The notes under the pieces were generated by a model, which searched no databases, was not told where the DNA came from, and was given only the letters and a program-made list of their open reading frames with translations. The position numbers and the translations under genes are program-made. This document shows, piece after piece, positions 31,075-33,656 of a stretch of DNA of 33,656 nt. Source of the stretch: an uncultured Pseudomonadota bacterium (GTDB taxonomy: Bacteria; Pseudomonadota; Gammaproteobacteria; Steroidobacterales; Steroidobacteraceae). Where the stretch lies: positions 1-33,656 of the forward strand of contig CAIOHZ010000261.1 of assembly GCA_903858165.1 (NCBI GenBank), read 5' to 3'. The stretch's first letter is position 1, and each line of letters opens with the position of its first letter.

Positions 31075-31392
31075 TCAGGCCTGCTCAGCGCCGCCGAAGT
31101 CGATCGTCTGCCCGGCAGCCAAGCTGACGTACGCCTTCTTCGTGTCGCTACGACGGCCGGCGAAGCGACCGAAGCGCTTCTCCTTGCCGTTCTGGTTGAC
31201 CACGTTCACAGACGCCACTTTGACGTTGAACATGAATTCCACCGCAGCCTTGATTTCCGGCTTGGTGGCATCCGTTAGAACCTTGAACACATACTGGTTA
31301 GCCGCTGCAGCACGGGCGCTCTTTTCAGAGACGTGCGGCGCCACCAGCAGATTGATCAAGCGTTCCTTGCTGACTTTGAGGGTGCTCATCAT
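31075..31392 (-). CDS. rplW: 50S ribosomal protein L23
   Basis: Tunnel-exit protein that docks trigger factor and SRP. 105 aa. It includes [39 protein letters not shown] and a C-terminal half with [20 protein letters not shown]. Tandem ATGs begin the gene; the first overlaps the rplD stop (ATGATGA), is 8 nt from GGAG and is preferred. Confidence 0.97.
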
Positions 31393-32003
31393 GCCAGCTT
31401 CTCCTCGAGCATCTTGAGCGCGCCAACCGTAACGAGCACCTTTTCGTGCCGCGCCAGAGTGACGGGATCTAGGGCCGCTACCGTCGCTACCTGCACATGG
31501 GGCAGATTGCGGGCAGCGAGGAACAACTTCTCTTCGAACGCCTCAACAATGACCAGCACGTCGTGCAGGGCCAAGGCCTTAAGATGCGCGAGAAGCAGCT
31601 TCGTCTTGGGGCTTTCCAGCTCCACAGCGTTCGTGACCACGAGACGATCGGCGCGGACCAGCTCGGAGAGCATGGACTTAATGGCGCCGCGATACATCTT
31701 GCGGTTGACCTTCTGGGAGAAGTCACGGGGACGCGCCGCAAAGGCACGACCGCCGCCCACCCAAATGGGGGAACGAATGGAACCGGCGCGAGCACTGCCC
31801 GTGCCCTTCTGGTTCCAGGGCTTGCGACCGCCGCCGCTGACTTCAGAGCGCGTCTTCTGCGCTTTGGTGCCGGCACGGCCGGCGTTGCGGTAGGCGACGA
31901 GAACCTGGTGAACCAGGGACTCGTTGAACTCGCGACCAAACGTCGCGTCGTCCACCTGCACCTCGGAGCTTGCCGCTCCGGAGCCAATGACATTGAGCTT
32001 CAT
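31389..32003 (-). CDS. rplD: 50S ribosomal protein L4
   Basis: Its extended loop lines the exit tunnel. In E. coli L4 also represses the S10 operon by binding its leader, which makes the structured regions around rpsJ here relevant. 204 aa. It contains [21 protein letters not shown] and [15 protein letters not shown] (first shown from its loop, [16 protein letters not shown]). It lies 15 nt after rplC and overlaps rplW by 4 nt. Confidence 0.98.
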
Positions 32004-32018
32004 GATGCGTTCCTGGGA

Positions 32019-32699
32019 TTACTTCTTGGTCGCGGCGACGCGCACACGGCGCGCCTGACCGGCAACCTTCACCGAGGGACGAACGATCACCGTACCGCCT
32101 TCGGAGCCGGGGACCGCACCACGCACCAGGAGTAGGTTGCGCTCTGCGTCCACTTCGACAATCGAGAGGTTCTCAATGGTGACGCGGTCGACGCCCATGT
32201 GGCCCGACATACGCTTGCCCTGGAACACACGACCCGGCGTCTGACGCTGGCCAATGGAACCGGGGGCGCGATGGGTCACAGAGACACCGTGGGTAGCAGG
32301 CATACCAGCGAAGTTGTGACGCTTGATGGTGCCGGCGAAACCCTTGCCGATGGTCGTGCCCGTGACGTCGACCACTTGGCCGACGACGAACAGGTCCACC
32401 TTGAGCTCGCTGCCCGACTGCAGGCCTTCACCCTCGGCTACGCCGAGACGGAATTCCATGCTGGCCTCGCCAGGAGGCGTACCGGCCTTGGCGAAGTGGC
32501 CCTGCTGGGCCTTCGTGACACGGGAGGCACGGCGAGTGCCCCAGGTGACCTGGATGGCGCGGTAACCGTCCGTCTCGCTGGTCTTAACCTGCGTAACGCG
32601 GTTGGGGAGCGCCTCAATCACGGTGACGGGAATAGATTCACCCGCCGGCGTGAAGATTCGGGTCATGCCGCGCTTGCGGCCTACCAAACCGAGACTCAT
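32019..32699 (-). CDS. rplC: 50S ribosomal protein L3
   Basis: Early-assembly protein reaching the peptidyl transferase centre. 226 aa from [20 protein letters not shown]; 28 upstream in-frame residues are not L3. [20 protein letters not shown] contains the glutamine that PrmB methylates in E. coli. GAGGAACAGGAAG before the ATG gives an AGGA-type ribosome binding site. It is unusually far (364 nt) from rpsJ. Confidence 0.97.
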
Positions 32700-33063
32700 C
32701 TTCCTGTTCCTCGTTAATGAGACAGAACCACTGGCACCGCCCCGCTCTCGCGGACCGGACGTCAGGGCACTGCCCTCCACCACACCGACTGCAATTGGCC
32801 GGCGCTGAATTATGTTTTCCCGGCCCCGCTAGGCGGCAACCGGAACCCGTTTCCCTCAGGAAGCCTTACCGCGGAAAACCCGCGAGATCGACAACCTGCT
32901 CAAAACGACTCTGGGGACCTTGTCCGACCTACCGGTGGTTTCGGCAACTCAGTTACCGACGTACCGGGAGGGTTACCCGTTCAAAGGGCCCCGAAGAGCC
33001 GCGTACTCTAGGCGAAAGCCTTGGAGTACGCAAGCCCCGTTCCAACTATTTTTATGGAACGGC
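32700..33063 (-). promoter_or_regulatory. 364-nt non-coding spacer rpsJ-rplC with a chain of hairpins
   Basis: No plausible protein is encoded on either strand. Read 5' to 3' on the transcribed minus strand it holds: SL1 33062-33037 (CCGTTCCA/TGGAACGG, 10-nt loop); SL2 33031-33001 (GCGTACTC/GAGTACGC plus an inner GGC/GCC); SL3 33000-32987 (GGCTC/GGGCC closing a UUCG loop); SL4 32967-32932 (CCGGT/ACCGG outer, CGGTAA/TTGCCG inner); SL5 32884-32870 (CGCGG/CCGCG). A bulged hairpin lies at about 32840-32821. The last roughly 100 nt before rplC are less structured. Probably a cis-regulatory leader for rplC onward, or an mRNA processing region. Confidence 0.65.
32809..32839 (-). promoter_or_regulatory. 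Weak promoter-like pair upstream of rplC
   Basis: On the minus strand TTGCCG (32839-32834), a 19-nt spacer and CATAAT (32814-32809). The spacer is longer than ideal. It would start transcription about 105 nt before rplC. Confidence 0.2.
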
Positions 33064-33375
33064 TCAGTTGAGCTTGATCTGAACGTCAACGCCAGCCGGC
33101 AGTTCGAGCTTCATGAGCGCGTCTACCGTCTTGTCGGTGGGGTTCAGGATGTCCATGAGCCGCTTGTGGGTGCGGATCTCGAACTGGTCACGGGCGTCCT
33201 TGTCGCCGTGGGGGGCAACGAGCACAGTGAAGCGTTCCATCTTAGTCGGCAGTGGGACCGGTCCACGGACCGTGGCGCCCGTGCGCTTGGCGGTCTCGAC
33301 GATCTCGCGAGCCGAGGTGTCGATGAGACGGTGGTCGAATGCCTTCAGGCGGATGCGGATATTCTGATTAGCCAT
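33064..33375 (-). CDS. rpsJ: 30S ribosomal protein S10
   Basis: Head protein of the 30S that, as NusE, also joins the antitermination complex. 103 aa from [19 protein letters not shown]; the ATG at 33373-33375 matches the family start. Key segments are [15 protein letters not shown] and the [21 protein letters not shown] loop ([18 protein letters not shown]). A longer frame from 33414 (13 extra residues) is rejected. The AGGAG at 33401-33397 is 21 nt from the ATG in linear distance, but a 5-bp hairpin occupies most of that spacer. Confidence 0.97.
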
Positions 33376-33381
33376 GTTGCC

Positions 33382-33401
33382 GGGCCGTGAGGCCCTCTCC
33401 T
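33382..33401 (-). promoter_or_regulatory. rpsJ Shine-Dalgarno separated from ATG by a hairpin
   Basis: AGGAG lies at 33401-33397. Then GGGCC (33395-33391) pairs with GGCCC (33386-33382) around TCAC. Six nt later is the ATG. Removing the 14-nt hairpin leaves a 7-nt spacing. No other purine-rich site lies nearer the start. Confidence 0.55.
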
Positions 33402-33414
33402 GTCGCTTCGGCAT

Positions 33415-33433
33415 CCCGGGCGGTACGCCCGGG
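33415..33433 (-). promoter_or_regulatory. 8-bp GC hairpin in the rpsJ leader, with alternative pairing
   Basis: CCCGGGCG (33433-33426) pairs with CGCCCGGG (33422-33415) around TAC. The upstream CGGGCGG (33444-33438) could instead pair with CCGCCCG (33423-33417), excluding this hairpin, so two exclusive folds exist. Confidence 0.6.
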
Positions 33434-33448
33434 CCTGCCGCCCGTTAC

Positions 33449-33477
33449 CGATCGGACCCTGTTACAGAGCCCGACCG
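33449..33477 (-). promoter_or_regulatory. 13-bp hairpin in the tuf-rpsJ gap
   Basis: On the minus strand 13 consecutive pairs (three G-U) close a UAA triloop, with arms 33477-33465 and 33461-33449. It starts 36 nt after the tuf stop. There is no U-run after it, so it is not a classical terminator. Confidence 0.65.
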
Positions 33478-33513
33478 CGGGTAGGTTGCTGTGGTTCTAC
33501 TCGTTACCGCTGT

Positions 33514-33656
33514 TTAGGCGACGATCTTCGAGACGACGCCGGCGCCGACGGTCTTGCCACCTTCACGGATGGCGAAGCGCAGGCCTTCTTCCATCGCGAT
33601 GGGCGAGATGAGGTCGACGACGAACTTGATGTTGTCGCCAGGCATCACCATCTCCA
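33514..33656 (-). CDS. tuf: Elongation factor Tu, C-terminal end (partial)
   Basis: The last 46 residues of EF-Tu domain 3 are visible up to TAA (33514-33516): [20 protein letters not shown], then [21 protein letters not shown] and SKIVA. The rest lies beyond the window edge. EF-Tu delivers aminoacyl-tRNA to the ribosome. It is upstream of rpsJ by 138 nt, the common str-S10 junction. Whether this is one of two tuf copies cannot be told. Confidence 0.97.

Follow-up and report, generated by a model that had tools for sequence, protein, structure and literature searches.

Which RNA at this locus is the leader of the S10 operon: the conspicuous hairpins that precede rpsJ, or something further downstream? 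The window, by which we mean the whole 33,656-nt stretch of DNA analyzed here, is the entire contig C261 of a 3.38 Mb genome, and the closest named relatives of its S10 protein belong to uncultured Steroidobacteraceae and to other Gammaproteobacteria or Proteobacteria. The features discussed here lie on its minus strand, which carries the gene order tuf (3′ end), rpsJ, rplC, rplD and onwards. The 3′ end of tuf, coding for EF-Tu (33514..33656; stop codon 33516-33514; Pfam GTP_EFTU_D3, E = 5.6e-17), is cut by the contig end. It is followed by a 138-nt gap (gap1, 33376..33513) in which sequence and folding place three hairpins, H1, H2 and H3, and then by rpsJ for ribosomal protein S10 (33064..33375, start at 33375; Pfam PF00338, E = 1.6e-36). 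A 364-nt spacer (gap2, 32700..33063), our proposed site for the S10-operon leader, separates rpsJ from rplC for ribosomal protein L3 (32019..32699; Pfam PF00297, E = 9.6e-13). Next comes rplD (31389..32003; Pfam PF00573, E = 1.9e-67) for ribosomal protein L4, the proposed ligand. Many assemblies stop in tuf, a little upstream of rpsJ (the window at 33656; L002, L007, L010 and others), as would be expected if tuf were a duplicated gene.

The joint reading that we lean towards, and consider rather probable, is that the hairpins of gap1 are a genus-limited spacer structure, and that the L4 feedback leader of this operon lies between rpsJ and rplC. The S10 operon of E. coli is repressed by L4, according to the part of PMC10931766 drawn on here. 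Its leader there responds to L4 both as an attenuator and as a translation operator. The attenuator hairpin is stem E, and control by L4 depends on stem D, according to the part of PMC10578931 drawn on here.

The evidence for a leader downstream of rpsJ comes from comparison with relatives. Many spacers between rpsJ and rplC are long (across 102 loci the median is 269 nt and the range 10-2659), and parts of them are conserved. One such part, element B, is an 8-bp hairpin whose loop reads CAAUYGNA in 43 of the 49 distinct copies that form our alignment A2, a loop conservation that is partly the product of having chosen A2 by loop letters alone, which also fixes the closing C-G pair. In this alignment 94.9% of the cells are paired, and at six of the eight pairs both partners vary. 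For covariation the alignment scores 0.679, versus 0.278 in shuffles, with none of 500 shuffles scoring as high; and when the partner strand is slid by 1-3 columns, pairing falls to 22.7-46.2%. Element B sits 18-43 nt from rplC in 45 of the 49 copies.

A hairpin pattern that we chose after viewing the relatives (loop CAANYGNA, at least 5 bp) occurs in 45 of 90 distinct gap2 sequences, being absent from the other half, and in 0 of 500 shuffled gap2 sequences. By the same pattern, 0 of 90 distinct tuf-rpsJ gaps, the window's among them, have a hairpin with the CAAUCGNA-type loop. This bears out a remark of the initial annotation, namely that the architecture ahead of rpsJ here does not obviously match the L4 leader of E. 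coli. Ten of the 90 distinct gap2 sequences carry a tandem pair of CAAUCG-type hairpins before rplC, with loops 44-66 nt apart (L049, L052, L055, L057, L059, L061, L066, L069, L077 and L039). Promoter-like sites matching the consensus at 9 or more of 12 positions are found on the sense strand of 44 of the 74 distinct gap2 sequences of at least 100 nt, and on the antisense strand of 4, where 3.8 would be expected. None of 20 relatives' loci gave a match in Rfam 15 at the gathering score.

A second feature of the same spacers, element A, has the form GGGCGAGGTTGG-hairpin-CCAAGACCACTCGAG, with outer strands that are nearly invariant and an inner hairpin that varies. It is present in 23 of 90 distinct gap2 sequences (L008 and 22 other loci). 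Element A may possibly be a second protein site.

The window has its own copy of element B at 32782..32805 (covariance model match 32775-32810), an 8-bp hairpin with loop CAAUUGCA, which we propose as the core of an L4-type leader. We built two models, R1 from A2, and R2 from A3, an alignment of 65 hairpins that leaves out the window, its congener G001 and E. coli; rows of A3 needed the loop and at least 6 of 8 pairs, so that its pair counts favour structure. R2, with no row from the window or G001, still finds the window copy with E = 1.8e-9 in the window. In a search of the whole genome the E-value is 1.8e-7, and the next match has E = 0.6.

Several properties of this copy speak against reading it as a leader of rplC. 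Counted from the end of the loop plus closing pair, 89 nt separate it from rplC; its promoter-like site matches only 7 of 12 positions; and a 141-nt piece folds in favour of a rival pairing. In the fold of 32697-33030 (334 nt, reaching from the promoter-like region as far as the AUG of rplC) element B is formed, with z = -3.06 and 0 of 100 shuffles as stable. The weak promoter-like site, TTGCGT-17-TAGAGT at 33005..33033, is below the threshold of our window scan, and the 44 of 74 distinct spacers counted above each have a better one. By eye, the site lies largely within an 8-bp inverted repeat, GCGTACTC...GAGTACGC, at 33000-33031. Also by eye, CGAGGUUGG...CCAAGACCACUCG at 32932..32967 is a possible diverged member of the element A family, and it forms a stem in the 334-nt fold.

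How widely does element B occur? Both models were run on 369 gammaproteobacterial genomes. R1 has a match with E ≤ 0.1 in 48 of them, and we examined 30 loci. Fourteen matches have E < 1e-3; all but one, in G293, are located between rpsJ and rplC, and 11 of those 13 are absent from A2. Among the other 16 loci examined, one lies between rpsJ and rplC (G288) and 15 elsewhere. R2, run with stricter filters, reports 63 of 369 genomes at E ≤ 0.05. Among the best 31, which are the ones we located, 30 lie between rpsJ and rplC (E ≤ 1.1e-4; 17 families, with the window's own genome included), and the 31st is again G293, elsewhere. Nine of these 30 hairpins belong to neither alignment (G041, G106, G113, G134, G136, G246, G249, G260 and G362), some of the nine being alike within a family.

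These searches start from the model. Starting from the gene, we inspected 97 rpsJ loci across the class (92 with tuf within 400 nt upstream), a non-random set picked by hand, by family and room on the contig: an S10 match exists in 327 genomes, and the choice was made among the best-scoring of these that were listed. Seven of the 97 have the hairpin (at least 4 bp) in gap2, and none has it upstream of rpsJ. A further 29 genomes, three of them within the 97 and 28 with a readable gap2, have the hairpin in 4 gap2 sequences, one of only 4 bp, and again in none upstream. Since the hairpin is in gap2 of only 7 of 97 loci and 4 of 29 genomes, element B is a minority trait outside the window's order. 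Every copy that we located at this operon, the window's included, is downstream of rpsJ, except in E. coli, where it is upstream.

A few model matches fall away from the rpsJ-rplC copy (G293:C13:41389-41431, G343:C3:35292-35334 and G246:C12:223304-223339; E-values from 2.8e-5 to 0.017), and that of G293 is away from both rpsJ and rplC. It is possible that such hairpins belong to another target gene.

The comparison with E. coli MG1655, the sole genome known as enteric in our set, is what connects element B to L4. The operon is shared, and the E. coli S10 leader, which precedes rpsJ, contains the hairpin CCCAU-CAAUCGUA-AUGGG, whose loop is to be compared with the CAAUYGNA of element B. The commonest element B loop, CAAUCGNA, has 7 of its 8 letters in common with the E. 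coli hairpin; the window copy has 6, differing at 2 of 8, and is also the one placed farther upstream. Several copies in other families combine a U-A closing pair, as in E. coli, with the sequence UCAAUCGUAA, and by their sequence these copies are a bridge between the E. coli hairpin and element B. With filters off, R2 places the S10-leader hairpin first in 3.5 kb of E. coli sequence (E = 0.0011; the next match has 0.38). R1 misses it with default filters, and with filters off reports E = 0.018 in 230 nt. The E. coli stretch itself has no Rfam match up to E = 10.

There is a further resemblance. The E. coli S10 leader has CAAUCG at two sites, each in one of two adjacent hairpins of its fold, which recalls the tandem hairpins in the spacers of 10 relatives; we assign the two E. 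coli hairpins to stems D and E from their position. A partial likeness is the promoter-like site found in 44 of the 74 distinct spacers, the site of the window matching only 7 of 12 positions. Taken as an L4-responsive S10 leader, element B has a covarying stem with a CAAUCGNA-type loop, and it stands in the leader of the L3-L4-L23-L2 genes. It does not lie upstream of rpsJ. The difference from E. coli is thus one of place: element B is found between rpsJ and rplC, usually near the start of rplC, and the E. coli hairpin before rpsJ.

If element B corresponds to the attenuator hairpin in the S10 leader of E. coli, as we propose, then the feedback leader of the L3-L4-L23-L2 operon would lie one gene downstream of its place in E. 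coli, with the CAAUYGNA hairpin as its core. L4 would most likely bind element B, because of that correspondence, and excess L4 would shut down rplC and the later genes while leaving rpsJ with tuf. We infer both the ligand and the repression from the comparative analysis.

We regard as unlikely an alternative in which the hairpin between rpsJ and rplC serves a different protein, L3 or L2, as its leader, and the likeness of its loop to E. coli arose by convergence. L4 is a putative ligand, element B stands directly before rplC and not before rplD, and the element A family in the same spacer could be the real binding site. Against this stand the 7 of 8 loop letters that the commonest form shares with E. 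coli (6 of 8 for the window copy), and an E. coli hairpin that comes out on top with a model built without E. coli. Moreover, it is L4 that represses the same operon in E. coli (PMC10931766, in the part drawn on here).

Returning to L4 as the probable ligand, the placement of element B bears on the history of this control. The part of PMC10931766 drawn on here describes the L4 site as not widely conserved in gammaproteobacteria: it has been demonstrated in enterobacteria, Haemophilus and Vibrio, and not in Pseudomonas. An ancestral-state reading, on which we are evenly divided, is that an L4 leader lies between rpsJ and rplC in the families from which the 30 located hits come, at least 17 in the Gammaproteobacteria. 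On that reading, rpsJ would go with the str/tuf unit and the unit under L4 control would begin at rplC, the E. coli order, in which leader and promoter precede rpsJ, would be derived, and control by L4 would go back much further than the late origin stated for it. The rpsJ-rplC hairpin offers an evolutionary path along which leader and rpsJ swapped order.

As for precedents, a predicted L4 leader ahead of rplC-rplD exists in Archaeoglobi (PMC7247131, in the part drawn on here). It resembles element B by position, and its lineage is archaeal. In the parts of the table drawn on from that source, a list of 20 new r-leaders, the L4 entry is for Archaeoglobi only. Our full-text phrase search of the literature on rplC leaders and promoters, from which key older papers fall outside, brought up no such leader by title or abstract opening, and the novelty of an rpsJ-rplC leader is provisional. 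A covarying hairpin with the loop of the E. coli attenuator type, and with no match in Rfam 15 in the loci scanned, is a direct and testable leader candidate. The element B loop may resemble a stretch of 23S rRNA as well.

What, then, are the hairpins in front of rpsJ? The initial annotation had described a 13-bp stem with a UAA loop and an 8-bp GC stem in this gap, and folding reproduces both. H1 (33449..33477) pairs 33477-33465 with 33461-33449, with pair probabilities of 0.97-1.0 on the minus strand, and has an optional 4-bp extension (33481-33478 with 33444-33441). Only 1 of 500 dinucleotide shuffles of gap1 has a stem of 13 bp or more, the mean longest stem being 5.8 bp. H2 (33409..33440) is the GC stem 33433-33426/33422-33415 with a UAC loop and a mean pair probability of 0.98, and beyond an internal loop it extends by a 5-bp outer stem, for a span of 33440-33409. 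H3 (33382..33395), absent from the initial annotation, is a 5-bp hairpin between the Shine-Dalgarno sequence AGGAG (33401-33397) and the rpsJ AUG. With H3 folded, the spacing between the two goes from 21 nt to about 7 nt, and H3 would thereby move the Shine-Dalgarno sequence to a working distance.

On the minus strand gap1 folds at -66.1 kcal/mol (z = -3.05), and 1 of 200 shuffles is equally stable; on the plus strand z is -0.59. This strand-specific stability is consistent with the G-U pairs of H1.

Conservation of gap1 stops at the genus. A DNA search with gap1 in 59 relatives, own genome included, gives matches in five genomes, and only two of them, the window's own (G000) and G001 (same genus, 91%), have the match at rpsJ. 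Likewise, among 30 rpsJ loci (own included; three by their last 60 nt only), the one with the same gap as the window is that of G001 (L087). In G022, G034 and G057 the match covers 25-43 nt of a contig other than the one with rpsJ; G001 has an additional second match of 30 nt (L006). The remaining two genomes of the genus, G002 and G003, have no rpsJ at E ≤ 1e-10, and so covariation in gap1 is limited to two species.

Those two species are informative about H1. G000 and G001 differ by 8 substitutions in the arms of H1 and by one base inserted in the loop. All 13 pairs remain standard in G001, with six pairs altered, in two cases at both partners. When substitutions were placed at random at these H1 positions, all pairs were retained in 44 of 20,000 trials. 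Because the pairs survive 8 substitutions, which is rare at random, selection appears to act on the RNA structure of H1, as far as two species can show. In G001, the core of H2 is invariant and its outer stem is shorter by one pair, while H3 retains its stem and has an altered loop.

Elsewhere, most tuf-rpsJ gaps are short (the median is 33.5 nt and the range 4-317 for the 100 of 110 loci measured, with some genomes counted twice, under name and handle). The gaps of other relatives are mostly unrelated to gap1, and their hairpins are by eye dissimilar in sequence. Since only one congener shares it and the other gaps are short and unrelated, gap1 looks like a genus-specific intercistronic structure of a tuf-rpsJ message, not an S10-operon leader.

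Strong folds are nevertheless frequent in tuf-rpsJ gaps. In the 37 distinct gaps of at least 50 nt, G000 and G001 included, z is below -2 for 24 on the sense strand and for 20 on the antisense strand. Because antisense folds are nearly as frequent as sense folds, the strong folds in these gaps could be DNA palindromes. Should the gap1 hairpins be read in this way, as DNA-level palindromes or small REP-like repeats that insert into the tuf-rpsJ gap and have no RNA role? The seemingly unrelated sequences of the hairpins would agree with it. We think it improbable: the stability of gap1 itself is strand-specific, and the pairing of H1 survives sequence change. We also looked for a close dispersed repeat, and rejected it, as gap1 gives a single match in its own genome at E ≤ 0.001.

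Intercistronic stabilizing hairpins do exist, for instance between malE and malF in E. coli. H1 resembles them in being a stable stem behind a highly expressed operon gene, with no terminator-like site. It is unlike them in that gap1 has no close dispersed repeat in its own genome at E ≤ 0.001. On our preferred reading, a genus-limited spacer structure, the gap1 hairpins would be structured RNA within a presumed tuf-rpsJ read-through message. H1 and H2 would most likely form a 3′ roof of the tuf message, a barrier to do with stability or processing, with the abundant EF-Tu outlasting S10. As a genus-level spacer structure the gap1 hairpins are of little importance, and the candidate L4-type leader between rpsJ and rplC is the more important result.

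The initial annotation had also proposed that gap1 contains two mutually exclusive folds, and had taken them as a hallmark of attenuators and protein-responsive leaders. The pairing as such is possible, and with H1 and H2 the three structural statements of the initial annotation hold up. The 3′ arm of H2 (33423-33417) is Watson-Crick complementary to CGGGCGG at 33438..33444; the pair of exclusive 7-bp helices arises here from the repeated word CGGGCG. Among 300 shuffles of gap1, 6 contain two exclusive helices of 7 bp or more. Forcing the rival fold gives -59.1 versus -66.1 kcal/mol, a cost of 7.0 kcal/mol, and a mean probability of about 1e-5 in the full gap1 leader, where the rival is negligible. 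The rival fold is best solely in RNAs ending near 33417-33412 (-39.9 vs -39.4 kcal/mol at 33415), and H2 overtakes it once its outer arm has been made (RNA end 33410). The two folds of comparable stability expected of a leader switched by a protein or ligand are thus near-equal in truncated RNA only, and for the complete gap1 leader the computed energies give no support to a switch.

A scan for a hairpin followed by a U-run finds 0 terminator-like sites in gap1, and we reject an intrinsic terminator there; an intrinsic attenuator is not supported. A consensus scan of the window finds no promoter-like site in gap1, and 0 of the 37 distinct tuf-rpsJ gaps of at least 50 nt have one. An Rfam 15 scan, also suggested by the initial annotation, returned nothing in the window at the gathering score; without that cut-off there are five matches, with E-values of 1.8-5.6 and far below their gathering scores, and we reject any Rfam identity for the window. 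A role of the tuf-rpsJ hairpins as attenuator, or as protein-binding leader of rpsJ and its operon, is therefore very unlikely, even though H1 is beyond chance and kept through 8 substitutions, and a brief co-transcriptional switch is conceivable from the marginal advantage of the rival helix in short RNAs: that helix all but vanishes in the full leader, terminator-like and promoter-like sites are lacking in gap1, and at rpsJ the structure was found only in G000 and G001.

A small feature is common to the two spacers that flank rpsJ: by eye, GGTAAC occurs four times across them on the minus strand (window 32900-33513).
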